Part shown: positions 29,709 through 59,464 of the stretch, one piece after another
How the letters are laid out: the number at the start of each line of letters is the position of its first letter
Position numbering within the stretch: position 1 is the stretch's first letter
Origin: Dichotomocladium elegans
Lineage: Eukaryota > Mucoromycota > Mucoromycetes > Mucorales > Lichtheimiaceae
Length of the DNA stretch: 64,000 bases
Direction: 5' to 3'
Assembly (NCBI GenBank): GCA_025716815.1
Contig: JAIXMN010000002.1
Coordinates: 2,355,343-2,419,342, forward strand
The notes under the pieces: model-generated
The model's database searches: none
What the model saw: the letters and a program-made list of their open reading frames with translations, nothing else
What the model was told of the DNA's origin: nothing
Program-made: the position numbers and the translations under genes

Positions 29709-31010
29709 ATGGCGGAAGAAGATGTAGACAGCATTGAGGAGAGCCATAAAAAACGATTACGTATGCGACATACAAACGAGAGCAGCGTAGTGGGTGGTGA
29801 TCAAGAAGAAAGCGGCGGTGATGATAGCAATGATGATGGCGATGATCTTTGGACCACTTGGAAAGAGTTGTTGAAGAATATACTAGGATGATTCCAAGTC
29901 AAGTCAAAAAAAAGACCTAGGGTAAGTCCAAGTCAAGTCGAAAAAAGACCTAGGGACAAGTCAGTCCAAGTCTAAGGTAAAGTCCTAGGGAAATGTTGGC
30001 CGAGGTCTAAGGTAAGATACTGTTGCATTTCCAAAATTATGGTAAGCCTAATGCTTTGTCTGATCCATGAAAATTGACAAAGTGTGCATGATTCTCAGCC
30101 CTGTGCGCCATGGCATAATCTGGTGCGGAAAAGAAGTGCAGCAGCGACCGTTACTCCCGTGTGATATGTGTACTCGGCTCAACAATGAAGGCTTTGGAAT
30201 ACAATTGCAAGCTGTTGATCCTTGCTTAAGACCAATTGTATCAGCAGCAGCAGATGCGGTAAACTAAACCCGTTTTCAACTAAAATGTTACAAGTGATAT
30301 TCATTTGCCCACGACTATAGATTGATAAAGAAGCATTCTCAAACGCGATTGAAAATTTGCGACACCATAAGACCGAAAAGATTGCCGAGAGATTCCTGAT
30401 AACAGGGACACTCCATATTTTGTAAGCTGCATGGGATCAAACTTTGTATCCAATTAAACTAATCAGGATTAAGATCTGATTTATTCGAAGGAGCAGCCAA
30501 AACATTATCGAAGTCTGAAGGCCGCTTGAGATTTTATGTCGTTGATCGAATCTTACAAGGATTCAATATGTTCCTGAATCGGAAAGCCAACGATGTCACG
30601 TTTTACCCTGGTGAAATCGAACTAAAAGCGATGACCGTCCAGCTGAAAGGGCAAAGGATTACAGATGGACGCCTCAAGTACTTTGCAGATGGAACGATTC
30701 TGGTCAACGACCTTGATACAGGAGTGCTGCTGTCGGAAATGTCATCTGCCTATGAAGAAAATAACAAAGGGGAAAACAAGTTTCGATCACCATAAAGCTA
30801 TGTTTGGTTTGCTGGCCTCGCTTCGCACGATTGCCAGTCTTTACAAGTATGCCAGCTTCGATTCATTCGAACAATTGAAGATCCATTTTATACACACCCA
30901 TAGTAAGTAAATTGAGAATAGCTCGCGTTAACTTAAAGCTTATTTACATTTGCCCACCAACGTTTTAGATCGTGCTATTCGTCATTGGACGATGTCCACT
31001 CCTGCACTAG
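29709..31010 (+). pseudogene. Unrecognised multi-exon protein, possibly lineage-expanded, 3' end cut off
   Basis: ATG at 29709 opens an acidic exon (MAEEDVDSIEESHKKRLRMR to WTTWKELLKNIL). Later exons: SPVRHGIIWCGKEVQQRPLL (30.1 kb), AFSNAIENLRHHKTEKIAER (30.34 kb), a long exon 30490-30790 (RFYVVDRILQGFNMFLNRK; VTFYPGEIELKAMT), FDHHKAMFGLLASLRTIASL (30.8 kb), then across an intron (30904-30968) NRAIRHWTMSTPAL. From memory, comparable proteins of unknown function occur in Mucorales. The last exon ends where a pogo-like terminal repeat begins at 31011-31014, so the carboxyl end is lost. One joint near 30.43 kb could not be closed in frame. No function is assigned. Confidence 0.5.
29889..30020 (+). 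repeat. Tandem repeat of about 35-40 bp inside a probable intron
   Basis: Units of the form CCAAGTCAAGTC, then an A-rich stretch, then GACCTAGGG, followed by shorter derivatives (GTCTAAGGTAAGTCCTAGGG type). It lies between the first and second exon of the 29.7-kb gene and contains several GTAAG donors. Confidence 0.7.
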
Positions 31011-31140
31011 GCTTGTACAGTGGGGCCCCGCTTTTTGCAGCAGAGCCTGGAGGAGATCCGCTTTTCACTTAAGTAAATTGCAGCATCCCCGAGTTTTGCA
31101 GTTTGCAGGTGAAAAAGCACTCCCTGCAATTTCCCGCTTA
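31011..31140 (+). mobile_element. Possible pogo/Fot1-like element terminus
   Basis: TA then CAGTGGGGCCCCGCTTTTTG matches the general pattern of pogo/Fot/Tigger terminal inverted repeats (CAGT..CCCCGCTT after a TA target). The next 110 bases contain GC-rich subterminal motifs including CCCGCTTAAG at about 31132. No transposase and no matching opposite end were found, so it could be a truncated or miniature element. Confidence 0.4.
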
Positions 31141-31565
31141 AGGTGACACATGCTAAGGAGGCCGAGAATCGAACTTTTTGATCTCAGTTAACAACGTACA
31201 CCATTTTGTCGTAACAGAGATTCTTCGACCGATCATAAGCGTTTGCCAAGAATCTCCTTTTCTACTTACACCTCCGTCATAGCACCAATACGACACCTCT
31301 CGCCAAGAAAACCAATCCCAACGATTATTACCCTTTTTCCTCTGCATTCCGTCTATGTATTTTTAGATAGCAAAAACAGTATAAATAACAAGAGGCCCAC
31401 ATACAATACAGGACATTTTTGAACCGCTACTTCTGCTTCTGCCACCAAGCTTAATCGCTATTCCTGGCCACTAAAGTCGTACCCAGCCAGTTCTGAAGTC
31501 GCAGGATTACAAAAATAGAAACGGGGGTGGTGTAAAATGGGATGGTGCAAATAGTAAAGCCCCAC
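31141..31565. other. Region between the pogo-like end and LINE copy 1
   Basis: No gene recognised. About 31455-31530 (minus) carries a stretch, TAATCCTGCGACTTCAGAAC, that recurs with few changes on the plus strand near 15540-15572, suggesting a dispersed repeat. LINE copy 1 homology ends at about 31568, so its 3' end is missing here. Confidence 0.5.
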
Positions 31566-34500
31566 TTACGACGGTAGCCAGTGCATCCGCCAGTGCTGCA
31601 GGCGATGCCGATCGCGACTGCTTGCTGGTAGGAACAGGATTGGGTCGATCTGCCTTGTGGGCCGGAGTCTTGAAATGGTGGGGAGCTTGCGGCGGCGAAT
31701 GAATTCCAAGTCACGTTGGTGGCTGACTGCTGCATGAACTGGGTCACGCGGCTCCGCGGAGGTGACCAGGCTTTTCCACGTATGCCACACTGGATTTGCA
31801 CGCGATAACTTTCGCCAGTTGTCATCGGTGCGCATGCGACTCAACCACGTCAACATGATCGAGCGCAGCATTGTTGGGGTCGGCAAATCGTACACACGAA
31901 TCACAAACTTTGCTTGCAGTATCTGTGCACGGAGCTGCATCGACGGGAGGTCAGTCATTACCATTGGAACGATGGTGGGGAGGCGGCGAGACACCGTACT
32001 GTTCATGGCGAGTTTAACGCAGCTGATCTGTGCTGTATGAATCAGTTGCAGTTGAGGAGCGGTGAGCGAGGCAATGGCGAGGCCATACTCCAGGACGGGA
32101 CGCACAAACGTACGATAGGCACGCAGTGCAGCCCACAATCCAAGCCCATATCGATGAATGCCGAGTTGCTGTAGCATTCCCATGGCACTGGTAGCCTTTG
32201 CGATGCGTTCCAAGACCAGGAGGTTGCGATCCAATCCGTGGGCACTAAAGGGGACACCCAGATACTTGAAGGACGGGGCGGTTGCAATTGGGGTGTTATA
32301 CAAGCTAAAGTTCCACCCATCAGGAGCGTTGAGCATGACACATTTGTCGGGGTGCCAGCGGTAACCAAGCTCGACTGAATGAGTTTCAGCAATAGCCAGC
32401 ATTAACACCATGTCTTCAGGCGCGCCAACGAGAGCGACATCATCTGCGTATAGTAACGAATTGGCGATCAGCAAGTCGACGTCGGGGCGGCGACGGGGAC
32501 GTCCACCTTGGAGATTTTGTTTATAGCGCAAATGATTGCTGCAGGCTTCCATGATGCCGTCAATGGGAGTGGTACGGATGATCAGCGGCCTCGATAGGAC
32601 GGGCACGCGAGAGCGCAGAACCTGGGGCAGCGAATCGATAAACACGGCGTATAACAAGGGACTGAGAATAGAGCCTTGTAGGACGCCTCGAGCAGGCTGG
32701 ATCGACCTCGATTGATGATGCTGGAGGATGACAGAGATATGAACATCTTCAAAGAGATGACGGCATAGCTGAAGTAGGGGCCCGGGGACAAGGCCACGTA
32801 GGCGAGACCAGATGACCTCGCGGTTCACCGAGTCGTACGCAGCCTTAATATCCAGGAAGGCGACGACGGGCCACGCACCATACATTTGCTGGTATCTGCG
32901 CATCAACATTTGCAAGCAGAATGCTTGGTCCAGCGCACCGCGGTTTTGGCGGAAGCCCCCTTGAGCGATGTCCAATGCCGGGATTTTGGACAAGAGACGT
33001 GGCAGCATGCACCGTTCGAGGATCTTGCGGAACAAGCTGGTCAGGCTAATTGGCCGGAAGTTGCCAGGTTGTGCAGGGTCACCCTTCTTGTAGATAGGCA
33101 CGACCTGTGCTATGCGCCATGCCTTTGGGGTCCAGGACCACCTCCAGCAGAGGGTAAAGAAACTCGTGAGCAGCTCAGCGAGGGGGATGGCAATCGGTTT
33201 TAGCATCGCCCCGGTGATGTGATCTACTCCGGGCGCCTTGCGGCTGGGCTGGGCGCGGATGACTGAGAGGACAATCTCGAATCGAAAGGGAGATGTGCCG
33301 ATCTCAGCAGGGTCAACACCAGGAGGTGGTCGAGTGCCCTCATGAAGGGTCCCCCCAAACACGTTCTCCAAGTGTGTCACCATCATCTCTGCGGCTTGCT
33401 GTGGTCCGTCACGGTGTGATAGCCATACGGGTGCCCGTCGACTTTGCTGCATCCGTTTGATCACCGCGTTCATCTCTCCGTGGGGTTTGTGCTCCATCGT
33501 CTGACAAAATTGCTTCCAGTGTGCTCGGCGAGTTCGTCGTAATTCCCTGTCGAAAGAGTCCCGAACACGGATGAAATGGGCCCAAAGTACAGCACGCGCG
33601 ACAAGATTACGGCTGGCGGTGTGCCAAGCCCGATAGGCGGCTTCACGGGCGTCTGCCAAGCGCTGGAGTTCCTCGGTCCAAAACCATTTCCAATGCTTTG
33701 GCCGCATACGCCCTCGGGTCACGCTCTCATCCAATGCCTGGGTAATACAGTTGGTAATGCGGGTACCAATCTGCTCAATCAGGTCGGCGCGGGTCAGGTG
33801 AAATGCTTCGATATCGAGGTGTGCGGTGATCTCTTCCCCTATGGGCTCTGCTAGTTGTGTAAATCGTCGGACATAGAGTTCGAGGATATCAGGATCTTGA
33901 AGGCGTTGGAGTTTCCAGTGTTGGCGCGGGGCGTTAGGAAGAGGCTGTTGCGGTATCGGCATCGTTGGGAGAAAGGAAAACTCACAGAGATGATGGTCGG
34001 AATTCAGCGAGAGTTCCTCATGGACAACGAGTGATGGATCACGTACTGCGTCGTAGCGTGAGATGAAGAGGTCGATGATACTCGATCCAAGGTGCGACTC
34101 GAATGTGAACTGGCCACGTGCTAGGGTGCTGTTCCAGATGTGGAGCCCTCTCTCCATGAGCCAGTCACGGAAAGGAGGGCCGCGTTCGTTGGTGATCCGG
34201 TCACCAAGGAGATCGATGATCCGCGTGTTGAAGTCACCGAGCAGGATGGTGTTTTCATCAACAGTGAGGTCGTTGAGTAATTGATTGTATTGGTGGAGCG
34301 GGAGGGATGGTGGTAGGTACAGTCCATGGACGACGTAGTGACCTAATGCGAAGCTGAGGACGTAGGGTGATGGGTGGTCGATGCGATGGATGTGGTATGG
34401 GAACTCTGGTCGAACCAGCAACGTGAGCCCGCCAATACCGCGGGTGCCGTTAGTCGGTATGTGTGCATAGTTGTGGTGTTGTATCCAGTCCGTGGTAAGT

Positions 34501-34634
34501 CGTCCTGTTGTTAGGTATGTTTCCGTTAGTAAAATAAGGTCAATGTTGAAATTAACGCAATGTCGTAAAAGCTCGTCTGGTGATCGTTGAAGCCCGCGAG
34601 CATTCAATAAACCAATCTTGATGTGGTTTATCAT
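31566..34634 (-). CDS. LINE ORF2, endonuclease and reverse transcriptase (copy 1)
   Basis: 1022 codons from ATG at 34634, overlapping the ORF1 stop as ATGA. Residues 1-225: APE-type endonuclease (GLLNARGLQRSPDELLRHC, LLTETYL, LLGDFNTR, SLNSDHHL with the catalytic SDHH). About residues 450-800: reverse transcriptase (RKAPGVDHITGAML, FRPISLTSLFRKILER, FLDIKAAYDSVNR, GVLQGSILSPLLYAVF, LLYADDVALVG). The frame is open but stops at HWLPS, just before the Cys-His motif present in copy 2. Known role of such proteins: nick the target and prime cDNA synthesis from the nick. The missing end suggests this copy is no longer fully functional. Confidence 0.9.
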   Translation of the reverse strand: MINHIKIGLLNARGLQRSPDELLRHCVNFNIDLILLTETYLTTGRLTTDWIQHHNYAHIPTNGTRGIGGLTLLVRPEFPYHIHRIDHPSPYVLSFALGHYVVHGLYLPPSLPLHQYNQLLNDLTVDENTILLGDFNTRIIDLLGDRITNERGPPFRDWLMERGLHIWNSTLARGQFTFESHLGSSIIDLFISRYDAVRDPSLVVHEELSLNSDHHLCEFSFLPTMPIPQQPLPNAPRQHWKLQRLQDPDILELYVRRFTQLAEPIGEEITAHLDIEAFHLTRADLIEQIGTRITNCITQALDESVTRGRMRPKHWKWFWTEELQRLADAREAAYRAWHTASRNLVARAVLWAHFIRVRDSFDRELRRTRRAHWKQFCQTMEHKPHGEMNAVIKRMQQSRRAPVWLSHRDGPQQAAEMMVTHLENVFGGTLHEGTRPPPGVDPAEIGTSPFRFEIVLSVIRAQPSRKAPGVDHITGAMLKPIAIPLAELLTSFFTLCWRWSWTPKAWRIAQVVPIYKKGDPAQPGNFRPISLTSLFRKILERCMLPRLLSKIPALDIAQGGFRQNRGALDQAFCLQMLMRRYQQMYGAWPVVAFLDIKAAYDSVNREVIWSRLRGLVPGPLLQLCRHLFEDVHISVILQHHQSRSIQPARGVLQGSILSPLLYAVFIDSLPQVLRSRVPVLSRPLIIRTTPIDGIMEACSNHLRYKQNLQGGRPRRRPDVDLLIANSLLYADDVALVGAPEDMVLMLAIAETHSVELGYRWHPDKCVMLNAPDGWNFSLYNTPIATAPSFKYLGVPFSAHGLDRNLLVLERIAKATSAMGMLQQLGIHRYGLGLWAALRAYRTFVRPVLEYGLAIASLTAPQLQLIHTAQISCVKLAMNSTVSRRLPTIVPMVMTDLPSMQLRAQILQAKFVIRVYDLPTPTMLRSIMLTWLSRMRTDDNWRKLSRANPVWHTWKSLVTSAEPRDPVHAAVSHQRDLEFIRRRKLPTISRLRPTRQIDPILFLPASSRDRHRLQHWRMHWLPS

Positions 34635-36000
34635 TGTTGCATTTCCTCCGCCGTTGCATCATCCGCGTCTACGTCAATGACATCCTCCTGCGTCGTGGGA
34701 TTGCCAAACACGGCTCGCACGTCGTCTTGGGAGGGGACAGCAGGCTGTCTCCTTACGGGGCGGGGGCGCGCCAAAAGGAAGCGATCGAGGATGGACTGGT
34801 CCAGCCGATGAGGTCGTTGACATCTACATCTCTCGCAAAGTGACGGAGGATGGCATAGCCGAGATGCGCTTTAGGCATGCGGACGCAAGCCCGCAACATT
34901 CGTTCCGCGTACAATTCGCGGGCTTTCTGTATGCGTTGATCGGTGTTGAGATCAGCATAGGCGGTTGAACGATGGTATCAGCTGCAACGGGATCAAATTT
35001 AATCACGGTAATCTTGGCCTGGGCGAGCTTTTCCTTTAGCTCATTGACGAAGGAGGAGTGCACCAACAGGTTTGTGACACCCCGCACAGGAAAATGAACA
35101 TCAATGATGCGTCCTTGAGGCACACCAAGGATTGAGAGGGCTCTTCTAACTTCGCTGTGTTGCGTACGACGCGGGGACGAGAGATACAGCATCGAGTATC
35201 CCCTGTGCTCACCTTCTATTGCTGGTGTGAAACAGCGGGTAGCCCAGTTGCGCATGCCTTCAGTTGGTTGATCCACACGTTGTCGGCGACGTTGAGCTCG
35301 CGATGGCGATGTGTTCTTTTTTGTGACCGAGGCCCAAGTGGTTGGGGCAGTCGTTGGGTGTGTGGCGGGTGTGTCGTTGTTAGGGCAATGGCGGGAATCC
35401 ATAGTGGATGATCCCGGGATTGCACTGATTCCATGAAGCGCACCACCGCAGGTGTTCGTTCAAGCGGGATCCGTCCTCCTGCATTGGGGTTGGTTGCTGC
35501 TTTGGTGGAAGGTTGCGCAAATTGTCCAATTCTTGTCGCAGCTGTGCTGATGTTGCACGCTCCTGTGCGAGGTCAACTCTAAGCTGATCTCGTTCAGCAA
35601 ATAGCTCCTGTAGTTGGTGCATCATTTTGTCCTGAGCGGACAATTGCTTCGCTTGCTCCGAGAGCTGGCGTTGTACACTCTGCACCCAATTAAAAAGATT
35701 AATTGAGTGTGGGAGTTCTGCTGAATTCCCGCTTGTGTTTCGTTTGCACGCAGTTCGCTCATCAGGTTCGCAAATGGCTGTTCGGTGGGTGCAGTTGGTT
35801 GCGATGGGGGCGGGCTGTTGCTGATCGGGATGGCCGATGTCGAAGTAATCGTGGAATCGGCGGCTGCATGGCGCCTGGGTAGAGGCTGCATCATTCGTTT
35901 TTTCACAGGCTGGGCTAGGCCTGCGATCTTTGTAGCACGGGGCACAAGGGAATGTCGGCGTTTTGCTGTGTCGTGCTACTGTCGGGCACGTTAGTGTCGC
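34632..36000 (-). pseudogene. LINE ORF1 (copy 1), frameshifted
   Basis: Three overlapping frames make up one ORF1: 35945-35690 (VPRATKIAGLAQPVKKRMMQ, PPSQPTAPTEQPFANLM), 35685-35420 (coiled coil QLSEQAKQLSAQDKMMHQLQ), 35402-34824 (PRRTQHSEVRRALSILGVPQ), then a further shift before the stop overlapping ORF2. The order equals ORF1 of copy 2. At least three frameshifts are visible. ORF1 proteins of LINEs bind their RNA; the coiled coil suggests oligomers. Confidence 0.75.
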
Positions 36001-36093
36001 CGGAGTGGGATCTGGGTCGTGGTGGTGATGGTGGTGGTGTTACGAGTGCGTGAAATTTTGTTGCGTGATAGGGTACACTTTTAGCCGAAAAAC

Positions 36094-36158
36094 TATATAA
36101 AGACCTCGAATTCGCCGCGCGCGATGCTCGACAAGGTCTCGCTTCTATGGCGCAATTG
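36094..36158 (+). repeat. Left 65-bp target duplication of LINE copy 2
   Basis: Identical to 41287-41351. It comprises 47 bases of tRNA-Asn 5' flank (starting TATATAAAGACC) and the first 18 bases of the tRNA (36141-36158, ending CAATTG). The rest of the tRNA is absent on this side. Confidence 0.9.
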
Positions 36159-36425
36159 AAAAGTTATTTATTGGTTTTGGAGCATGGTTGTGGCCGGCGC
36201 CTATGGGCATGTGGCCGCTCCGTGACAGTACAAAAGGATGTCGGATAAAAATTAAAGTTACAATGCCGATCAGAATGGTGCATTAAAAAACCCCCAAAAG
36301 AGGAAAAAGTCAACCACCTGTCAAAAAAAAAAAAGAATATAGACCAAAATGGGAGAAAATGAAAATGAGAAAAAAAGAGCATGTGATGCTAATACCAGAC
36401 ACCAAGAGAAAGGCCTCAGGTGGAG

Positions 36426-39400
36426 TTAGTCAGCCAGCTCGACGCGGGCAGCTTCAAGTGCCGCTTGAACAGCTTCAGCCATGGGAGCAGAGGGATCGTC
36501 GTCGTCTTCGAAATCATCAGCATCGGGGTGGCTAAGAAAGTCGACGCGGCGCAGATAGTGCAGCAAGGCTGGCCAGGCGAGCTGCCAGCGCCCGTTCTGG
36601 AGCTTGTCTGCTGATCGTGGCAGGCTGTTGATGATGTGGTCAACGGGGTGGAGCGCATTTGAGACCGGTACAAAGCCAAAGGCGCGTTTGAGGGCCAATG
36701 CGGCCTGCTCCACCAGAGGACACTCCGTGTAGTGCGTACGCGTGGCAGCCTCAGCCCCGCAGCGGCAGTTCTTGAGCGGGAAGGAGGGAAGCCAATGGAG
36801 ACGCCAGTTCACCAGGCGATGCCGATCACGTGAGGTGGCGGGGAGAAACAGCACCGGGTCAATCTGGCGCGTAGGTCGTAGGCGGGCGACAGCTGGTTTC
36901 TGGGCGCGACGCTTCTCCAGCTCAAGATCGCGGTGGTGTAGCACTGCTTCACGGACTGGATATTGAGGTGGCTCATCTGACAAAACGAGGCCACGCCAGG
37001 TGGTCCAAAGAGGGTTGGCACGCGAGATTTTACGCCACGGCTCATCGGTCCGCTGGTGTTGCAGGAAGGACAAAATGACCGCACGCAGCATTGTCGGAGT
37101 CGGTAATGCATTGCCGCGCGTCACAAACTTGACCTGCAGGATTCGCATTCGCAATGTCATTGACGGGAGATCGGCCATCACCATTGGCACAATCGTTGGC
37201 AATCGGCGGGCAGTCGGCTGGTTCATTGCAAGCTTGACGCAGCTTTCTTGCGCCTTTTGGAGGAGGGCGAGCTGGTCGTATGTTAAGGGGGCTATGGCAA
37301 GGCCATACTCGAGAATGGGGCGAACAAAGGTACGATACGTACGCAGTGCTGCCCACAGACCGAGACCATAACGATGCACCCCCATATGTCGGAACGTAGC
37401 CATCACACCTGTGGCCTTGCTAATGCGGTCTTGTACCAGTTGGTCGCGGTCAATGCCTTCTTTGCTGAAAGGGATGCCAAGGTATTTGAATGCTTGCACC
37501 ACTGGAAGAGGCCGCGAGTACAACGTAAAAATGTCACTAGCTGGAGCATTCAGTACTGCGCATTTTTCAGGGTTCCACCGGTATCCTAGCTGGCGCGAGT
37601 GTCGCTCTGCCATGCCCAGCATGTGGCACATGTCCTCAGCAGTACCAAAGAGGGCAACGTCGTCGGCGTAGAGCAGTGCGTTGACTGGCATGATGTGGTT
37701 GTCGATCCGAGGTGGGGGCCGGCCGCCACCAGGGCTTCGATAGTAGCGGAGACGGTTGCTTGCTTCTTCAGAAACCCCCTCGAGGCTTGTTGTGCGAAGG
37801 AGGAGGGGCCGGCGCAGGTGTGCATTAACTCGGAGGGCCGTCGGAAGCGTGTCGATGAAAATGGCGTAGAGCAGAGGGCTAAGGATCGAGCCTTGCAGGA
37901 CGCCTTTTGCGGGCCGGATGAAGTGCGATTGGTAGTTTTTCAGGATAACAGCCAGCTGAACATCCTCAAACAAATGACGACAGAGCCGAAAGGAAGCAGG
38001 TGGGAGGTGCCCACGCAGGTGTTCCCAGATGACCTGGCGATCCACAGAGTCATACGCCGCTTTGATGTCGAGGAACGCAACCACTGGCCATTCACCATGC
38101 TCCTGCTGAAATCGACGCATGAGAATGTACAGCGAGAAGGCTTGGTCCAAGGCACCGCGGTTCTCCCTAAAGCCACCTTGTGCCATATCCAATGCAGGTA
38201 TGTGATCGAGCAAGTGCGGCAGCAGGCATCGCTCGAGTATCTTGCGAAAGAGGCTGGTGAGACTGATTGGACGATAGTTACTCGGCTGTGAGGGATCTCC
38301 TTTCTTGTAGATGGGGACTACTTGGGCGGTCCGCCATCCAGGAGGGGTCCACGACCAGCGCCAGCACAGGGTAAACAACGCCTCCAGGAGTTTGGACAGA
38401 GGGATGGCGATGGGCTTGAGCATTGCCCCAGTGATGTGATCGCTTCCGGGGGCTTTCCGCGACGGCATTTGCTTGATGATAGCACGAATGTCCGAGGCAT
38501 TAAAGGGCGATATGCCAAGCAGGGATGGGTCGATGGCTGCAGGAGGGGTGGAGTCTACCAAACGATTTCCGCCAAAAACTTGCTCGAGATGAGTTGCCAT
38601 GCTGGAGGCAGCGTGCAGTGGACCATCAGGATGGGAGAGGGTGGTGGGGGCAGTACGGCTGCGGCGCATGCGCTTGAGGACGGCATTGACCTCCCCTTGT
38701 GTTCGCTGTTCCATGGCTTTGCAAAATTGCTTCCACTGTTGGCGGCGTGTCAATCTTAGTTCCCTTCCAAAGGCTTTCTTCGCGGCCTGGAACCGATTCC
38801 ACAGCATGGAGCGATTGACTAGGTCACCAGGGGCGTTTCGCCAGCGGCGGTATTCTTCTTCACGTCGGTCTGCGAGACGCTGGAGCTCGTCATTCCAGAA
38901 CCATTTCCAGTGACGAGGTCGCATCTTGCCACGCGTGACGCTCGCATCCAAGGCGGACTGGATGCTGGCGGTGATCCGGTCACCGAAATCCTCTATTAGG
39001 TGACGATGGCAGATATGAAACTCGTCGGTCAGATGTGAGAGAATCTCGTCAAGCAGAGGATCTGTTGCGATGGTGAACTTGTCGATGAAAAGAGCCATGA
39101 TATCCGGGTCGTTGAGTCGTTGTAGCCGCCAATGTTGCCGGGGCGCTGTAGGTTCTGGTAGTGTTGTTAGAGGCGTGACTGTCCAGAACGAGAAGACACA
39201 CAGGTGGTGGTCTGAGTTGAGAGAGACATCGCTGCAGATCACCAGGGACGGATCTCTTACAGCTAACCGGTTTGAGATGAACAGGTCGATGATGCTCGTG
39301 CCCAGGGCAGATGCAAATGTGGGCTGGCCATAGGTGAGTGAACCATTCCAGATATGCAAGCCATGCTGTATCACCCAGTCGCGAAGAGTAGGACCGCGGT

Positions 39401-39845
39401 CGTTCTGGTCGTGGTCACCGAGTGAGCGGAGCCGAGTGTTGAGATCACCAAGGACGATGGTGCGGTCGTCGATGGTGAGGCTGTTGAGAAGGTCACGGAT
39501 TGTAAGAAGATCGAGTGATGGCGGTAAGTAGAGGGAGTGCACTGTATAAGGCCCCATGGTGAAGGAGAGGATATAGGGCGAGGTGATGGCATGTGGGTGG
39601 ATATGGAAAGGCAAGTCAGGGCGGGCCAAGAGTGAGACACCGCCAAAACCGCGAGTGCCATTGCGCGGCCTGCGCGCATAGTTGTGGGTTTGCGTCCAAT
39701 GTGTGTTGAGTCGACCTTGCATAAGGTATGTTTCTGTGAGAATTAAAATGTCGACATTCATGTTGGTGCAATGTCGAACCACCTCGTCAGGCGACCGGTT
39801 GATGCCAGCCGCGTTTAATAGACCGATGCAAAGTCGATCTATCAT
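36426..39845 (-). CDS. LINE ORF2, endonuclease and reverse transcriptase (copy 2)
   Basis: 1139 codons, uninterrupted. Residues 1-225: APE-type endonuclease (LLNAAGINRSPDEVVRHC, ILTETYL, VLGDLNTR, SLNSDHHLCVF). About 460-820: reverse transcriptase (SRKAPGSDHITGAMLKPI, FLDIKAAYDSVDR, GVLQGSILSPLLYAIF, ALLYADDVALFG with YADD). About 1025-1045: Cys-His motif (CRCGAEAATRTHYTECP), as found near the carboxyl end of many LINE ORF2 proteins. The acidic tail ends ALEAARVELAD. The start ATG (39843-39845) overlaps the ORF1 TGA as ATGA, which suggests translation by termination and reinitiation. It should encode a complete target-primed reverse transcription enzyme; site choice is presumably set by its endonuclease. 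Confidence 0.95.
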   Translation of the reverse strand: MIDRLCIGLLNAAGINRSPDEVVRHCTNMNVDILILTETYLMQGRLNTHWTQTHNYARRPRNGTRGFGGVSLLARPDLPFHIHPHAITSPYILSFTMGPYTVHSLYLPPSLDLLTIRDLLNSLTIDDRTIVLGDLNTRLRSLGDHDQNDRGPTLRDWVIQHGLHIWNGSLTYGQPTFASALGTSIIDLFISNRLAVRDPSLVICSDVSLNSDHHLCVFSFWTVTPLTTLPEPTAPRQHWRLQRLNDPDIMALFIDKFTIATDPLLDEILSHLTDEFHICHRHLIEDFGDRITASIQSALDASVTRGKMRPRHWKWFWNDELQRLADRREEEYRRWRNAPGDLVNRSMLWNRFQAAKKAFGRELRLTRRQQWKQFCKAMEQRTQGEVNAVLKRMRRSRTAPTTLSHPDGPLHAASSMATHLEQVFGGNRLVDSTPPAAIDPSLLGISPFNASDIRAIIKQMPSRKAPGSDHITGAMLKPIAIPLSKLLEALFTLCWRWSWTPPGWRTAQVVPIYKKGDPSQPSNYRPISLTSLFRKILERCLLPHLLDHIPALDMAQGGFRENRGALDQAFSLYILMRRFQQEHGEWPVVAFLDIKAAYDSVDRQVIWEHLRGHLPPASFRLCRHLFEDVQLAVILKNYQSHFIRPAKGVLQGSILSPLLYAIFIDTLPTALRVNAHLRRPLLLRTTSLEGVSEEASNRLRYYRSPGGGRPPPRIDNHIMPVNALLYADDVALFGTAEDMCHMLGMAERHSRQLGYRWNPEKCAVLNAPASDIFTLYSRPLPVVQAFKYLGIPFSKEGIDRDQLVQDRISKATGVMATFRHMGVHRYGLGLWAALRTYRTFVRPILEYGLAIAPLTYDQLALLQKAQESCVKLAMNQPTARRLPTIVPMVMADLPSMTLRMRILQVKFVTRGNALPTPTMLRAVILSFLQHQRTDEPWRKISRANPLWTTWRGLVLSDEPPQYPVREAVLHHRDLELEKRRAQKPAVARLRPTRQIDPVLFLPATSRDRHRLVNWRLHWLPSFPLKNCRCGAEAATRTHYTECPLVEQAALALKRAFGFVPVSNALHPVDHIINSLPRSADKLQNGRWQLAWPALLHYLRRVDFLSHPDADDFEDDDDPSAPMAEAVQAALEAARVELAD

Positions 39846-41230
39846 TGACTGTCGTGCATTTCGTCGTCGTCCACATCTCGGCTAATGCCGAGAATCTTTT
39901 CAGCTTCTTCCACAGATGGGATTGGCCGCGGGGCAGGTCGTACTGGGCGTTGACGGACCGCCTGGAATTGCGTTAGTACGGTAGCATCCAAATGGTGCGG
40001 GTCGTCCACGTCGGTATTCACAAAATGTTGCAAGATCGAGAAACCCAGATGTGCCTTGGGCATTCGAAGACAGGCTCGAAGCATCCGTTGTTGATAGAGC
40101 TCGCGGGCTTTTGCGACACGTTCCTCTGCTGTAAATCCGGCATACGCCGGCTGAATGATGGTGTTGGCTGCGATGGGATCAAAATCGATGGTGGTGATCT
40201 TGGCCTCTGCGAGTTTCGCCTTAAGTTCGCACACAAATGATGCGTGTACCAGCAAACTGGTAACACCGCGAACTGGGAAGTGTACATCAATGATGCGCCC
40301 TTGAGGGACACCCAGAATTGAGAGTGCCCGTCGGATCTCACTGTGTTGTGTGCGGCGTGGTGATGCAAAGGACAGCATAGCATAACCTCGGTTCTCCGGA
40401 GATGCTGCGGCTGCAAAGCAGCGGGTTGCCCAGGTGAGCATGCCTTCAGTAGGTTGATCGGTGCGCTGCCGACGGCGCTGGGCGCGAGAGGGGGGTGTGT
40501 TTTTCCGTGCTACTGAGGCCCATGTGAGCTGGCTAGCAGTGGATGTTGCGTTCACTGGACGATGGCGTGAGTCCATGGTGGAAGATCCCGGCACTGCGAC
40601 TGCATCCATGAATCGTACAACGGCTGGTGTGCCTTCAGGCTGGTTGCTCTCGACCTGCATCGGATTTTCTTCCGTCTGTTGTAGTGAGTTACGTAAGGTA
40701 CTCAACTCCTTCCGCAGTGCTGCAGTAGATGCCCTTTCCTGGGCGAGGTCTGCCTTGAGCTGGTCCCGTTCAGCAAGTAGCTCCTGGAGTTGGTTCATCA
40801 TCGTGTCATGTGCGGATAATAGCTTCGCCTGCTCGGAGAGCTGATGTTGCACACTCTGTACCCAATTAAATAAATTAATGGAGTGTGGGAGTTCTACCAT
40901 GGCTTCCGCCTGGTTTTCGTTCTTGTGCACTTCCTCCATCAAGTTCGCAAATGTCTGCTTGGTTCGCTCTGCCGACTGCGAAGTTGGCAGACTGTTGCTG
41001 ATCGTGTGGCTGATGTTGACACTATCTCGGAAGTAATAGCGTCCTGGCGCATTGGTGAAGGTTGCATCATTCGCTTTTTCACCGGCTGTGGTGGGCCTGG
41101 GATCTTTGTTGCACGTGGCACAAGTGAATGCCTACGCTTTGCACGTGTGTTGGGAGCCGTGGTGCTGCTGTCAGGCACGTTAGAAGTGTCAGTGGTGGTT
41201 GCGGGAGTCGTAATGGAGTTTGTAATGGTG
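39842..41230 (-). CDS. LINE ORF1, coiled-coil RNA-binding-type protein (copy 2)
   Basis: The main frame, 40942-39842, encodes a leucine-rich coiled coil (QLSEQAKLLSAHDTMMNQLQ to LRKELSTLRNSLQ), a basic linker (ARKNTPPSRAQRRRQRTDQP), a folded domain (PRRTQHSEIRRALSILGVPQ, DVHFPVRGVTSLLVHASFV) and a tail with SVEEAEKILGISRDVDDDEM. Upstream, residues homologous to copy 1 continue in this frame (TKQTFANL) and then in another frame (PRATKIPGPPQPVKKRMMQP, to about 41.2 kb), so a frameshift lies near 41.0 kb. No obvious ATG precedes that part. No CCHC knuckle is visible in ORF1. Confidence 0.75.
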
Positions 41231-41286
41231 GCAGTTGTTGGGGGCGAAAATTTCGACGGGCCGGAGAAAGTGTTTTACCGAAAAAG

Positions 41287-41351
41287 TATATAAAGACCTC
41301 GAATTCGCCGCGCGCGATGCTCGACAAGGTCTCGCTTCTATGGCGCAATTG
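41287..41351 (+). repeat. Right 65-bp target duplication of LINE copy 2
   Basis: Same 65 bases as 36094-36158, here continuous with the remaining 56 bases of tRNA-Asn, so the tRNA gene is rebuilt on this side. Confidence 0.9.
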
Positions 41352-41407
41352 GCTAGCGCGTCTGACTGTTAATCAGGAGGTTGGTGGTTCGAGCCCACCT
41401 AGGAGCG
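41334..41407 (+). tRNA. tRNA-Asn (anticodon GTT)
   Basis: 74 nt. Acceptor arms GCTTCTA and TAGGAGC, D stem GCGC/GCGC, anticodon loop CTGTTAA with GTT at 41368-41370, T arm GGTGG TTCGAGC CCACC, discriminator G. One G-U pair in the acceptor and one in the anticodon stem. A TATATAAA element lies 47 bp upstream, and a T5 tract at 41441-41445 may be the Pol III terminator. The gene looks intact despite the LINE insertion, because the target duplication restores its 5' part. Confidence 0.95.
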
Positions 41408-41487
41408 GGTCAACCACATGGTAGTGGAAAATAGTTTCACTTTTTGTCGTGTCGTGGACTGATCGTGTGAGTCACGTGGCATGAATG

Positions 41488-41779
41488 TGTCGTCTTTTTA
41501 TCAAACTTGGATACCACTGAGAAGAGACGACGTCCACGGAGAGATAGAACCACACAGATAGTCGTCCGGACAATATATGATGATGTTTTATTATGATAAA
41601 TGTCCCATTATTTATACTGTATTGACTTGTAAGAAATGAGTGCAATGCTGTCAAGATTGCTACTGATGACTCATGTTTAGCAACCATTGTCATTCGGACT
41701 TTGTCTAAAAAGTGCTACGCTCCGCGGTAATGGTCATGTAGCTGGTGATTAAAATAATCGACTGGACTGTACTACGACA
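41488..41779 (-). repeat. 3' LTR of element A
   Basis: 292 bp. Matches the right LTR except for a 28-bp segment (GAGATAACCAC-type repeat) present only on the right and a few substitutions. The complement of the polypurine tract (TTACCCCCCTCC) adjoins it at 41780. Confidence 0.9.
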
Positions 41780-44700
41780 TTACCCCCCTCCGAGAATGTT
41801 GGTCGTCCTCGAACAACAACTGCAAGGTGTGGTCTTGGATATCTGATCGGTTGGCGGCACGGGAAGCGACAGGATCGAACCAAGGGGAGGTGGGTGCTGT
41901 CTGAAAATGGACGGGACGTAGACGGTCGGTATGGACCCAGGAGCTATATTCCTTGCCGTTCATGTCTTTTAGCTTGTAGGTGTCCGAGTCTAAGTTACGA
42001 CTGATCACCAAGTACAGTCCTTTCCAATTGTACTCCAGGCTTAACTTTTGCTCGTTACGTAATAGGACATGGTCACCAATAGCAAACGTTTGCGGTTGTA
42101 GTGTGGCATCCCAAATAGCTTTATCCCGCTGGGCGTTGGCGCGAAGCTGTTCCGCGGCAGAGGCGCGAGCTTCATGTAAGCGCAACAGCGATGGTCGGCG
42201 AGCATCTACAAGTGTCTTGGGATCCGGTTCTTGTTCTTCAACTAGTAAGGGCCGCGTCATATCACCAGGAAGGCGGGGTTCTACTCCGTACACCATATAG
42301 AACGGACTCATGCCCGTTGTGCGATGCTTGCGCACACAACACGCAAAGACAGACGGTTCTAAGAAATCATCCCAGCAATGGATGGCACCATTGGTATATT
42401 TCCGAAGCATAGATTTAAGAATGCCGTTGGTGCGCTCAACCTTGCCATTCGTACGTGGGTGGAAAGCCGAAGTCAACTTGTGGTGGATTTTGGTGCGACC
42501 CAGATACAGGTTCAATACTTTGGACATGAAGTTGGCGCCGCGATCCGTCAGGATTTCGTTAGGGCAACCGAACTGCATGACGATCTCTTCAAAAATGAAA
42601 TCAGCAATGGCTTGGCCTGTGGCATCAGGGACGGCTCGTGCGATGGTCCAATTGGTGGTGTAGTCGACGGCGACCAAGATCCAATGGTTGCGGCGCATGG
42701 TGGTCGGTAGTTCGCCAATAAAATCAAGATGCCAACGTGAGAAAGCAGGTGGGACATCCAAGGGTCGCATGGGTGCATGATGTGTGCCGCGGTCGGGGTT
42801 GGCTGCCAACTGGCACTGGGGGCAATTACGTAGCCATTCCTGGATGTCTTCTTTCATGTTCGGCCACCACCAACGTTTCTTGATGACGTCGTACAGAGTT
42901 TCCATCCCGGCGTGTCCAAAACTGGTATGAAAGTGATGAACAAGATCGGCGCGGCGAGCGAAGAGAGCAAAGCGGATTTCTTGTACCTCAGATCCGACCT
43001 TGACTTTGCGATAAATTCGGTTATCTCTGACTGTAAATTTGTCCCGATGCTTCACCAAGAGATCCCTGACTATGGCCGGCCACTGTGTTTCGGCAAAATT
43101 GTAGAATTTCGGCCAGTCGGATTCCTCAATCGACTTTATGGCGTAGAGGTAATTAGGTTCCAGTGACTTCTCTTCCGGAACGCAGTGAGGTCCATCTCGC
43201 CGAGACAGCAGGTCAGGTACATGATTGTCCTTTCCACTCTTGTACTGAATCTCGGGGTCGTATAGTTCTAGTTCGGCTATCCAACGGATCAGGCGTGGTG
43301 GCGGTGGTTTTGTGCGGCTCCGGAAGTACAACAAAGGGTGATGATCGGTGCGTACAACATAAGGTCTACCTTCGACAAAACAACGCCATGTGCGCAGTGC
43401 ATGTAGTATACCCAATAGTTCCCTCTCTTGGGCTGGATAATTGCGTTCGGCCGAGGACAGCTTCTTGGATTCAAAAGCGAGCGGATGTAGCTGGCCATCC
43501 TCTCCCTCTTGCAGCAGTACCGCACCTATACCAAAGTTAGAGGCGTCCGTCTCGATGATATACGGTAGGTCGGGGTTCGGTGGTAGCAGTATCGGGGCCT
43601 CGGACATGCGGGACTTGATAAGGTCGAAAGCGGTCTGGCATTCTGGCGTCCAACTGATCGACCGCTTTTTCGCACCCGTCCCCTTCGTCAGATCGGTTAA
43701 CGGTGCCGCTATTGTCGCGAAATCACGGATAAAACGCCGGTAATGAGAGGCCAAACCGACAAACTGCCGTACTTCTTGGACGTTGGTCGGCTGCGGCCAA
43801 TCGCGAATAGCTTTTACCTTGGTTTTGGACGGTAGAATCCCTGCAGCAGAGACCTGGAACCCAACGAATTCCAGCTCAGTCTTGAAGAATTCGCATTTCT
43901 TCAGGTTGGCCACTAGCTTAGCATCCCGTAAACGATCAAGAACCTGGCGTACGTGTTGGTAATGCTCCTTTTCGGACTTGCTAAAGATCAGAATGTCGTC
44001 GAGATAAACCAATGCAAAAACATCCAAGCAGTCGCCCAAAACGGAATTCATTAGCCGTTGGAACGTGGGAGGGGCATTTGTCAATCCAAAAGGGAGCACT
44101 TGGAACTCGTATGATCCGTAGCGTGTGTTGAATGCTGTCTTGGGAATATCCTCCTCTCGAATCCGTACTTGATGATAGCCGCTTTTCAAATCGATACTTG
44201 AGAAATATTTGGCACCACCGATTCGTTCCAAGCATTCGTCGATTCGAGGGAGTGGATGCGAGTTGCGTTTAGTTACCTGATTGATTGCATGGTAGTCCAC
44301 ACAGAGGCGCATTGAGCCGTCCTTCTTGCGCACGAACAACACCGGGGCGCCCCATGGAGACGCGCTAGGGCGGATCAAACGTAGATCTAAGAGCTCTTTG
44401 AGCTGCTTACGCAATTCGTCCAGCTCGAGTGGGCTCATCTTGTATGGTGCTCGATTGATGGGTGCTGCAGCACCTGTGTCGATGACATGGCTCACCTCAC
44501 GCACAGGTGGTAGTCCTGGTAGTTTATCCTGGAAGACTTCTGGGTATTCCTTGCACAGTGCGTGGAGTTTGTCTTGCTGGGGTTTCTTCTCCTCTTGGTG
44601 CTCGGTACGCACGTAGCACAAGTACAGCTCATCTACTTGATCCCGTGTAACCATCCGGGCGACTTGGCGGTGTGAGATAAGGTAGGCCAGCTCCGGAATA

Positions 44701-45240
44701 GGGCGATCGTACTTTGGCCGAAGTGTGTACTGAATCCCATTGACCGAAAACGTCCATGTATCTTGATCCCAATCTGGTACAGGTTTGATGTTCTTGATCC
44801 AATCGCGACCCAGGATCAAGTCGAATTTTGTATCGAGAACGAACGCAGAAACGTTGTGGGTAAAACCAGCGGCATCTAGTGATAGACTGACAGAGCAGTC
44901 GATTGAGAACTTATGGCCACCGGCGGTTTCCACTTGCTGGTCCTTGACATAACGCACAGGGCAACCCACAGCCAACTGAGGTGACACATATGACGAGGTA
45001 GCGCCACTATCCAATAATACTTCAATCGGTTTCCCATTGCAGGACATGTTGTACAGGGGTAACTCGGTATTCTTTATTGCCAATAGTGATTCAATATGTC
45101 TAACGTCAGCGGCAAGCACTTTTCGATCATCCTCGTCTTGCTCGGCCGGGGGATCGTCAGACAAATCGATCAATGGTCTCTCCGATGGGCGCGGTTCTTG
45201 TGTTGGGACAGGTATACCAGCGGGCGGATCTGAGGTAGGG
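41772..45240 (-). CDS. Ty3-type Pol polyprotein of element A
   Basis: The frame is open from before 45173 with no ATG; it starts downstream of the Gag stop in the -1 frame, so frameshifting or internal initiation is implied. Counting from 45173 (TTG): retropepsin motif LLDSGATSSYV at about residue 53; RT with FALVYLDDILIFSK at about 390; RNase H with IETDASNFGIGAVLLQE at about 545; integrase zinc finger H-H-C-C (FHTSFGHAGMETLYD to NCPQCQ) at about 735-785; integrase D,D,E core (HLDFIGELP, LTDRGANFMS, HPRTNGKVERTNG) at about 815-915; then a GPY-like end (YNWKGLYLVISRN). No chromodomain. The stop codon falls 8 bases inside the 3' LTR. The frame is uninterrupted, so the protein may be functional. 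Confidence 0.93.
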
Positions 45241-50597: not shown

Positions 50598-53500
50598 TTA
50601 AGATCGTCGTCTCTGACTTCTTCTCAAATTCTTGTCGGTCTTGTTATAGTCAGATCGTGATCGTTTCTTGCTGGGTACTTTATCCTTTTTGTGCGATGAC
50701 TCAATTTCGGGTGGTACATCAGCATTCTTTTCATCTTGTCCCAGTCTATGCCAGTATTCGATGATGAATCCAGGATCGGTGAATTTGTCGGGTGTCAACC
50801 ATTGATCATCTTCAGGTCCATAACCCTTCCATCGTACGCGATATTGACGGTTTCCTGGCTTTCCTTTGTGTGCAATGATGGCCTGTACTTCATATAATTC
50901 ATCTTGAGGGACAACTTCGTCTTGATTGATCAGTTTCATCTCAGAGGGTGAATAGTCGCGAGGCATTAACGCTCCAGTTTCGTCTTGCAACACATATGAT
51001 CCTCCTTGTGTTTTGCGTAGCACGGTATAAGGTCCTTCAAAGATCGGAGCTAGCTTGCTTTTCCGGTTCTGTACACGGACCATCACATGACTCCTTTCTG
51101 GGAAGTCTGTCAAGTGATGTTTTTCGTCAAATTTTTTCTTCTGTTTATCTCCATGCTCTTCCACTTTTCGTTTCAAGGCAGGAAAGACGACATCGTGCAT
51201 ATACGCGGCACGCTCCATTAATTCCTCGTGTGTGGACGCGCGTTTTTCAACAGCATTCTTGTCGCGGTAGTCTTTCAGCTCGTTAATTCGTCGCGCGAAC
51301 ATGAGGGAGAATGGGGAGGAACCCAACCTCTCAGAAATGCGGCTGTTGATTTCCAGCTGTGTACTGGGAACGTAGAAATCCCAGTCTTTACCAGCACCTT
51401 GTAGTTTCTTGCGAATGACACTCAGCGTGGTTTGCACCCATCGTTCGGCAACACCATTAGCGCGCGGGTGATAAGGCGTAGTAAGTCGGTGGTCAATTCC
51501 CAGATTCTCAACAAAGGTCTTCATCTTGAAGTTCTTGAATTCGCTTCCGTTATCTGACTGAATAATCTTGGGTAGTCCGAAATCGCAGAATACAGACTTG
51601 AAAACTTCAATGATGGTATCGGCCGCCTTGTCTGGTAGTGCGCGCAGTATACAAAAGCGTGTGCACACATCGACAAAGACGATAATGTAATTGTTTCCTT
51701 TGCATGAAGTGCGATGAAAGTTAATCAAGTCAACTGCCCAGTGATCACCTGGTAAGTATGCATATATTGGTCGCAAGGGATTGAAACCTCGTTTGCCAAT
51801 GTTGTAACGTTGACATTGAATGCATGATCGTACATGCTCTACCGCATCTTGGAACAAGTTTGCCCAGTGGACACCATCGGCATGCAGCGATCGCACAATA
51901 TGCTCTGCTCCTTCATGACCGCCCGTTAAGTGTGCCTTTTCCAACAATGCTGGACGTTCGGCCTCAGGTGGACACATCGTATCTTGTGGAAATTCGAAAG
52001 ACTTGATGACGAATACACGTTTGTTGGACGGATTTTTCTTTGCTGACCGTATAATAGGAACATCACCCCCCTCCAGCTGGTCGGCAGGGGCGAACAAGCG
52101 AGAAAGGTTATCGGGCAGCACATTCTCAATACCTGGTAGATGAATCACTTGGAAGGAATAATCGAGAAGAGTATCTAACCAGTTAATCATCATAGGATTA
52201 GCAATCTTCTGGGTATGTAGGTATGTCAGCGCTTTATGATCGGTGTATAGGGTGAATGGATTTCCCCATAGATACTGATGAAACTTCTGTAGCGCATATA
52301 CAACTGCTAGCAGCTCTCGTTTGGTTGTTGAATAGTTGCGTTCGGATTTGCTGAGAGAGCGAGCCATAAACGATACATATTGCTTCACACCATCGTTCAT
52401 TTGAAAGAGGACGGCGCCAATCCCGTAGTTGGATGCATCAGTAGCCACGTAAAACGGTAATGAGAGATCTGGGTATCGCAAGAGGGTACGCTCAGCTAAC
52501 AGAGCTTTCAGCTTATTGAAGCAGGCAGTATGCTCGTCAGTCCAGAGCTGATTCAAAGATCCAGCGGAACGTAACGCATCGAGTGGCGCACTGATCTCAG
52601 AAACCTTTGGAATATGGTCGCGGAAATAATTGATGATCCCCATGAAACGCATTACATCCTTGCCCGTTCGTGGTATAGGCCACTGTAGGACATTGGTAAG
52701 TTTTCGTTCATCAGGGGTAATACCACTCTGCGAGATACAGAATCCAAGTAGATAAACCGATCGTTGGGCAAAATGGCACTTTGCGGGATTGAGGAGCAAA
52801 TTGACGTTGGTCAGTGCTTGGATAGCCAATTGGACGTGGCGTGTATGTTCAGCCATTGTACGCGAGTGTACTACGATATCATCCACAAAGGTTTGGACAA
52901 ATGGCATCTCCTTGTAAATCGACGACATCACTCTTTGGAACTTGGACGATATGGGTTTCAAACCGAAAGGACATCCGCGGAACATATATTGGATTCCATC
53001 GTGAGTGAATGTGGTCTTGTGCTGGTCAGCTTCATTAATCTGGAATCGATGGAACGCGCTCTTGAGATCTAGCGTAGTGAATACAGCTGAACCACCTAAG
53101 GATGAAAAGATTTCCTTGATCAAAGGTAATGGATATCGGTCATCAGGAAGATACTTATTAATGTGGCGAGGATCCAGACATGGGCGTTTGCCAGTCTTAT
53201 TGCCATATTCATCCTTCTTGTCGGCCAAAGTGAGAGGACTGTTCCAGCTGGAATTGACGGATGCCTTGACAATAATACCGTCTTCGAGCCAACTTTTGAC
53301 AGCATCATCAACAATGGGACGTACAGCATAAGGTAAAGGGTATTGTCGTTGATATGCGGATACACCTTTGGGAGTGTCGAGATAGATGACTGACTCAGGT
53401 ACCATACAGAAAGCATCTTTCGGGATCGTTGCATTGGCCTTGATATATGGTTCGAGTGCCCTATGGAATGCAGTTTGTTCAGACGGTGTACCTGCAGGTG

Positions 53501-59391: not shown

Positions 59392-59464
59392 GGGGATGTA
59401 GCTCAAATGGTAGAGCGCTCGCTTAGCATGCGAGAGGTACTGGGATCGACGCCCAGCTTCTCCA
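59392..59464 (+). tRNA. tRNA-Ala (anticodon AGC)
   Basis: 73 nt. Acceptor GGGGATG and CTTCTCC with one U-U mismatch and one G-U pair, D arm GCTC..GAGC, anticodon loop TTAGCAT with AGC at 59425-59427, T arm CTGGG ATCGACG CCCAG, discriminator A. T-rich CTCTTTTG at about 59489-59496 could end Pol III transcription. It lies between two LTR elements. Confidence 0.93.

Follow-up and report, generated by a model that had tools for sequence, protein, structure and literature searches.

Site-specific LINEs in Dichotomocladium elegans appear to integrate inside tRNA genes and to restore them through a 14-base duplication

A 64,000-nucleotide stretch of the Dichotomocladium elegans genome (assembly GCA_025716815.1, contig JAIXMN010000002.1, positions 2,355,343 to 2,419,342; here called the window) carries a long interspersed nuclear element (LINE B) between two identical 65-base copies, the right one of which leads into a tRNA-Asn gene. 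This raises the question of how a retrotransposon could enter an essential kind of gene and leave it whole. The original prediction read the 65 bases as one unusually long target duplication, made of 47 bp of tRNA flank and 18 bases of tRNA. The repeat itself is real (36094-36158 and 41287-41351, 65/65 bases identical, identity ending sharply on both sides, within a 79-base repeat of 96% identity), and its right copy does continue into an intact tRNA-Asn, confirming that the gene was rebuilt. However, the 47 bp belong to the LINE. The repeat consists of a conserved 47-bp LINE 5' terminus (hereafter the module) plus tRNA bases, and only the tRNA part is a target duplication. The 47-bp part of one copy closes LINE B, and that of the other closes a second element, LINE A. 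Left of the two copies, 35512-35719 and 35831-35966 are 74–77% alike to 40688-40895 and 41007-41142 at near-equal spacing, the pattern expected of two related LINEs lying head to tail.

LINE B is a non-long terminal repeat (non-LTR) retrotransposon of the apurinic/apyrimidinic endonuclease (APE) type, and both of its open reading frames (ORFs) are open. The product of ORF1 gave no Pfam match at E 0.001 and no PDB match at E 1. ORF2 matched PF14529, PF03372 and PF00078 above the Pfam cut-off, with the APE domain at its N-terminus, and its best PDB match was human L1 ORF2p (E 8.8e-15). No RNase H family was found in ORF2 (Pfam, E 0.001), nor was a restriction-like domain seen in the Pfam scan, beyond which no search for one was made. 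LINE A, whose ORF2 lies at 31566-34634, is broken, and at 65.6% identity to LINE B it represents a different family. Its alignment with a type 2 element begins 598 bases inside that element, and LINE A shares 98.3% identity with a copy on contig C77 over 4088 bases. LINE A is the older of the two and was already in place when LINE B inserted.

The target duplication proper comprises tRNA bases 1–14. A duplication of up to 18 bases fits by eye because the 3' end of LINE B reads ATTG, like bases 15–18 of tRNA-Asn; at a tRNA-Ile gene hit by the same element type (L011), Ile bases 1–14 are followed by ATTG, whereas tRNA-Ile itself has GTTG. With the 14-base boundary LINE B measures 5179 bp, and the length of 5128 bp given earlier has to be corrected.

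The assembly (39.4 Mb, 122 contigs) was searched for LINE 5' ends with a 20-bp core of the module, allowing up to 3 mismatches, and all matches were examined with their flanks. There were 63 core matches, against 1 for the reversed pattern; five with 3 mismatches and no surrounding module (L075, L078, L081, L082 and L083) were dropped as chance matches, leaving 58 real modules. An intact tRNA gene, called by ARAGORN, adjoins 29 of these, and nine isotypes are represented: Ile (5), Glu-CTC (5), Asn (4), Thr-AGT (4), Glu-TTC (2), Lys-CTT (2), Phe (2), Asp (2), Thr-CGT (1), Met (1) and Tyr (1). Another 26 adjoin a tRNA 5' fragment (a scar) that is followed directly by the 3' end of another LINE. 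Altogether 55/58 5' ends lie directly against a tRNA, either whole or as a fragment, with the LINE antisense to the tRNA in 55/55; five of the joints (L054, L061, L062, L066 and L068) have 1 or 7 extra bases, as judged by eye. The remaining three modules (L074, L079 and L080) are interrupted at CGACAA by a sequence starting TGACACGTT, which we assumed to be an LTR element. Of the 1319 candidates in a genome search with RF00005, 63 were scored. A tRNA-Phe leader at C29:110092-110324 (L098) resembles a decayed module, with 15/20 core bases, and is possibly the trace of an old LINE loss.

These flanks bear directly on the 65 bp. If one insertion had cut in the D-arm and at a TATA-like element upstream of the tRNA, duplicating 65 bp, the 65/65 identical bases in the window would be accounted for. 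But the same 47 bp end LINE A, and they or close variants end LINEs at nine isotypes, so the copies at other tRNAs refute this model. The 47 bp were not seen in 23 leaders without a LINE. Moreover, the outermost scars L125 (Phe), L126 (Thr) and L127 (Thr) follow other sequence, and only tRNA bases are duplicated there; the leaders of L125 and L127 lack the module and show no detected repeat, in keeping with a gene that was being hit for the first time. The leader of L126 resembles the LTR-like leaders described below. The 47-bp part travels with the LINE, and we rejected a 65-bp duplication as almost certainly wrong. The TATA-like stretch is likewise the LINE's own, and the second cut would lie opposite tRNA -1/+1.

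LINE 3' ends were then collected as four kinds, found at 8 + 6 + 11 + 12 = 37 places; reversed controls gave 0. At 36 of the 37 the LINE is preceded by tRNA bases 1–14, with up to 3 substitutions, the last base being A14 in box A. The proposed cut inside box A is borne out by these joints, although they lie at base 14 and not 18. The sequence after A14 is element-specific: type 3 ends with ATC occur alike in Ile, Tyr and Lys genes and at a site on C28. This C28 site holds the 37th 3' end, a 5'-truncated stub of about 96 bases, and no tRNA was called there by ARAGORN. The stub is flanked on both sides by AGTTTTCGCAGACA, its own 14-bp duplication, at a site of the form CA|G..GG, suggesting that the 14-bp stagger is intrinsic to the integration machinery. 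Exact rebuilding of a tRNA would then follow because A14 is the 14th base of the tRNA, matching the stagger.

A module lies 5.17–5.29 kb from the 3' end at 21/37 places and within 3.5–7.5 kb at 25/37, so that over half of the copies are full length; the remaining copies are interrupted, shortened, at contig ends or unpaired. For 26 3' ends with a module within 7.5 kb both flanks could be compared. Identical 14-mers lie on both sides in 18/26 pairs, and in 4/26 (C68, C112, C55 and C71) the 14-mers differ by 1–3 substitutions. These target duplications, like the 5'-truncated copy of about 96 bases, agree with APE-type LINEs. Copies scattered without a tRNA at their ends, which would have spoken against site specificity, are not what the survey found. 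The family is specific for tRNA genes as had been suggested, but its targets extend over nine isotypes and are not restricted to tRNA-Asn.

We consider it very probable that these are site-specific APE-type LINEs which integrate inside tRNA genes by target-primed reverse transcription, with a 14-bp stagger that restores the gene and elements that stack. In the junctions the element is antisense to the tRNA; base 14 adjoins its 3' end, and a new copy of base 1 adjoins its 5' end. The 3' junctions suggest that a nick in the tRNA-sense strand, just behind the conserved A14 in box A, would prime cDNA synthesis from the element's fixed 3' end; a poly(A) tail was not seen at the LINE 3' ends. The other strand would be cut 14 bp away. 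Such a stagger reaches from A14 back to the very first base of the gene and would copy precisely bases 1–14, so that the tRNA on the far side would be whole. The target would be renewed in this way, and elements could follow one another head to tail, separated by tRNA scars of 14 bases, in an array that ends in a single intact tRNA. With every insertion the LINE's 47-bp module would also replace the former leader of the tRNA, which would be displaced by about 5 kb; if the module works as a leader, the tRNA would keep working and the insertion would be harmless.

Two observations sit poorly with this scheme in its simplest form. Three of the 58 modules, those with the assumed LTR-like insert, had no tRNA in the stretch read, and 4/26 pairs match different tRNAs at their two ends: C13:99568 (Met/Asn), C95:16998 (Tyr/Ile), C21:8978 (Asp/Glu) and C58:10689 (Glu-TTC/Glu-CTC, one base apart). 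Mixed flanks argue against a simple one-insertion history; recombination between LINE copies or tRNA loci, or misassembly, would explain them, and the C58 case is perhaps a single mutation.

At least two elements stand at one tRNA on C35 (the window), C13, C44, C45, C55, C56, C58, C60, C61, C63, C68, C80, C83 and C95 at least. By the geometry of the insertions, the element next to the tRNA is the latest. Comparison of 28 tRNA-proximal with 23 outer copies (51 contexts, three LTR-interrupted modules left out) gave a divergence of 0.017 against 0.047 for the module (one-sided p 0.07) and 0.072 against 0.212 for the untranslated region (UTR; one-sided p 0.04), but this age gradient was not significant without L042, L064 and L066 (p 0.22 for the module, 0.15 for the UTR). 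Growth of the arrays by unequal crossing-over or segmental duplication, and not by repeated insertion, would fit arrays that repeat one family (C61 and C44) and the four pairs with mixed flanks. Against it, LINE A and LINE B are of different families, and families are likewise mixed in the arrays on C68, C55 and C13, making such growth an improbable account of the arrays.

How the target is found was considered separately. The LINEs could be tethered to the RNA polymerase III (Pol III) machinery (TFIIIB/TFIIIC), as proposed for TRE5-A, with no reading of box A by the endonuclease; insertion at one and the same position in nine isotypes whose acceptor stems differ agrees with this. The base-exact A14 joints, the sequence of the off-target site on C28 and the restriction of type 4 elements in this survey to Glu and Asp genes (12/12 3' ends) suggest, in contrast, that DNA is read. 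We regard tethering as possible but less likely than not.

The module varies little across the families. Majority sequences of three module groups (54/58 modules, identical contexts counted once) are identical over -20..-1 and share 0.93 of the ten bases before, 0.67 and 0.87 of the next two ten-base blocks upstream, and 0.20–0.53 over -100..-51; reverse transcriptase (RT) stretches of the other families have 50–66% protein identity to LINE B. In 28 distinct copies flush with a tRNA, the module diverges less than the adjoining 5' UTR (0.017 against 0.072, p = 0.002). All four nuclear tRNA-Asn bodies found with a strict and a loose pattern (4/4) lie behind a LINE module, so this essential tRNA would be made from genes behind modules unless the assembly lacks others. 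Two other loose tRNA-Asn matches lie on C12; this contig, where tRNAs stand in inverted duplicate positions and an AT-rich sequence resembles tRNA-Asn, is probably mitochondrial, and both matches were taken as such. The ends of C13 (1072130) and C112 (1207192) lie inside LINEs behind tRNA-Asn scars, so further tRNA-Asn genes may be missing from the assembly.

It is plausible from the sequences that the module serves as a Pol III leader for the tRNA, and perhaps also as a LINE promoter. The 39 leaders without a LINE module, some of which contain LTR-like ends, are AT-rich at -32..-26, and 25/39 have CAA within -12..-4, against 4, 4 and 6/39 in three control windows; among 23 leaders chosen as clean, 13 have CAA at -10..-5, although two of the 23 (the window tRNA-Ala, winAla, and L126) proved LTR-like. 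The module carries AATT or TATT at -32 and CAA at -9. LTR-like elements also treat the two kinds of leader alike: their ends lie 10–13 nt from the tRNA both in 7 cases of non-LINE leaders and in module-derived ones (L107, L110, L018 twice, L128, L129 and L130). This is about where the Pol III start is expected; yeast Ty3, according to a passage of PMC5006619, integrates close to that start, some 12 bp upstream of the mature tRNA. At a tRNA-Tyr gene on C55, a solo LTR of about 400 bp sits inside the module with a GACA duplication. With these LTR-like elements the genome has a second mode of tRNA targeting, similar to that of Ty3; further ones lie 10–13 nt before tRNAs at L034, L035, L088, L091, L092 and L113-L117. 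The tRNA-Ala gene of the window (59392-59464) has an LTR-like end (GTCCATGACA) 12 nt upstream.

Other results speak against a leader role. Modules beside scars serve no tRNA now, and yet they too are conserved relative to the adjoining UTR (0.039 against 0.148, n = 20, p = 0.011); conservation beside tRNAs and scars alike makes selection on the element itself likely. A weight matrix built from 23 non-LINE leaders, including the LTR-like winAla and L126, failed to single out the module, which ranked 8024 among 10262 positions in LINE B, or 7821 among 10322 with the last 15 bases only. Both results would fit a module conserved for the LINE itself, as an internal promoter or RNA signal that the tRNA merely tolerates, and we hold this to be a serious candidate with somewhat less than an even chance. 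The match of CAA at -9 and the AT tetramer at -32 to positions enriched in non-LINE leaders, and the use of the module by LTR-like elements in the manner of a tRNA leader, stand on the other side. A function for the LINE and one as tRNA leader are not mutually exclusive. The fuller proposal is of a portable Pol III leader: the LINE would cut the tRNA in box A, restore the gene by its fitting stagger and take over the upstream promoter, the supply of tRNA-Asn would depend on LINE 5' ends, and arrays would record successive hits with the youngest nearest the tRNA. We judge this proposal as a whole to be evenly balanced between true and false.

A self-cleaving ribozyme like that of hepatitis delta virus, freeing the LINE 5' end, was also considered as the reason for the module. 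In the Asn-type module, bases 1–6 pair with 36–41 in the predicted fold, with a G-U pair first. However, no pair changes on both sides among 8 variants, pair 5-37 is broken in 6/8 and pair 4-38 in 5/8, the fold z-score is +0.97, and no ribozyme family was among the Rfam matches with E up to 5 in window positions 30000-42000. Fold, covariation and Rfam evidence together, with the conserved first helix (P1) lacking, led us to reject a ribozyme or hairpin in the module, which is very unlikely.

The features of the locus are collected in Table 1. Two further retrotransposons lie downstream of the tRNA-Asn gene in the window: a gypsy-type pol frame at 41772-45173, and a gypsy-type element at 50598-55436 with an open frame of 1612 amino acids (protease, RT, RNase H, integrase and chromodomain).

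Table 1. LINEs A and B, the tRNA-Asn gene and the target duplication (positions in the window; aa, amino acids)
Feature	Position	Strand	Basis or remark
LINE A, related family, 3' part missing, ORF1 broken	31567..36140	-	ORFs; 78% to type 2 element
LINE A 5'-terminal module, identical to that of LINE B	36094..36140	-	repeat comparison
Scar, tRNA-Asn bases 1–14, left duplication copy	36141..36154	+	sequence, 3' junction survey
LINE B, full length, 5179 bp	36155..41333	-	5' end head-to-head with tRNA-Asn gene; 3' boundary ambiguous by 4 bases (ATTG)
LINE B 3'-end last bases, ATTG in tRNA sense	36155..36158	-	same letters as tRNA-Asn bases 15–18
LINE B ORF2, 1139 aa, APE endonuclease and RT	36426..39845	-	ATG overlaps ORF1 stop as ATGA
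LINE B ORF1, 366 aa	39842..40942	-	listed from TTG; second codon is ATG
LINE B 47-bp 5'-terminal module	41287..41333	-	directly upstream of tRNA base 1
Intact tRNA-Asn(GTT) gene	41334..41407	+	Rfam 65.7 bits; ARAGORN 41333-41408
Right duplication copy, bases 1–14 of intact tRNA	41334..41347	+	sequence, 3' junction survey
tRNA box A	41341..41352	+	read from sequence by the box A consensus; inferred nick after A14 (41347) falls inside

Homologues of ORF2 were found as 38 proteins, the closest at 58% identity; named ones come from Lichtheimia ramosa (57% over 97% of ORF2), L. ornata, Circinella minor, L. corymbifera and Rhizopus delemar. In an RT tree, Lichtheimia proteins were the neighbours of LINEs A and B (98/93), and the Glu/Asp family joined a protein from Circinella (99/99); the LINE families therefore look older than the genera Lichtheimia and Circinella. 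The tree has 27 rows, types 3 and 4 being partial, and 9/24 of its inner branches are well supported, with some long branches; its relatives are database proteins without clade names, and matches of up to 180 columns or numbered above P0024 were left out. By their proteins, the Lichtheimia, Circinella and Rhizopus homologues belong to the same RT lineage.

Comparison with known systems follows passages of the cited papers. TRE5 of Dictyostelium discoideum resembles LINE B in being APE-type, antisense, on the upstream side of the tRNA and found in tandem insertions, TRE tandems at one tRNA gene being known (PMC5391098). TRE5-A, whose ORF1 protein binds TFIIIB, inserts about 47 bp upstream, in a window outside the tRNA gene (PMC5391098, PMC5911963), and TRE3 inserts downstream of it (PMC5391098, PMC5006619, PMC5911963); TRE elements are thus described at a distance from the gene, whereas LINE B sits inside the tRNA sequence, with base 14 on one side and, on the other, a new base 1 that belongs to the restored gene. 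NLTR-A, a non-LTR element of Dictyostelium purpureum, ends 2–6 bp upstream of the mature tRNA (PMC5006619, PMC5911963), almost at the tRNA start as LINE B does, but it has an RNase H domain, such as Pfam did not find in LINE B ORF2, and the passages on it make no mention of an intra-tRNA duplication, a rebuilt gene or a common 5' leader module. Specificity for tRNA genes is shared by the non-LTR elements NeSL-1_TV at tRNA-Pro, LIN15_SM at tRNA-Arg and LIN25_SM at tRNA-Glu, the NeSL clade having a restriction-like endonuclease where LINE B is APE-type (PMC4640811). The Dada DNA transposons of Perkinsus and zebrafish insert, like the LINE B family, within tRNA genes with a duplication in box A, proposed to be TAGCTC; they differ in having a DDE transposase and a six-base duplication, against APE/RT and 14 bases (PMC3706591). 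The passages on Dada and on the NeSL/LIN elements do not speak of a restored tRNA. In line with the original prediction, the literature searched, which covers few subscription papers, showed no description of a comparable fungal LINE. As far as these searches show, new features are the APE-type insertion inside box A, the gene-restoring 14-base duplication, the 5' module common to several families and the capture of every tRNA-Asn gene that was identified.

Site-specific LINEs usually spare their host because the gene that they enter has many other copies or because they insert next to a gene. The elements described here appear to cut an essential gene class and to restore the gene in the act, because their two cuts are as far apart as the tRNA start is from a universally conserved base. 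With a renewable target and nearly neutral insertion, they would be a clean system for studying how LINEs choose both of their cut sites, and an APE-type element at a self-restoring site may be of interest for gene insertion tools. Should the module function as a tRNA leader, retrotransposon sequence would drive the tRNA-Asn genes found in D. elegans, a case of promoter capture.

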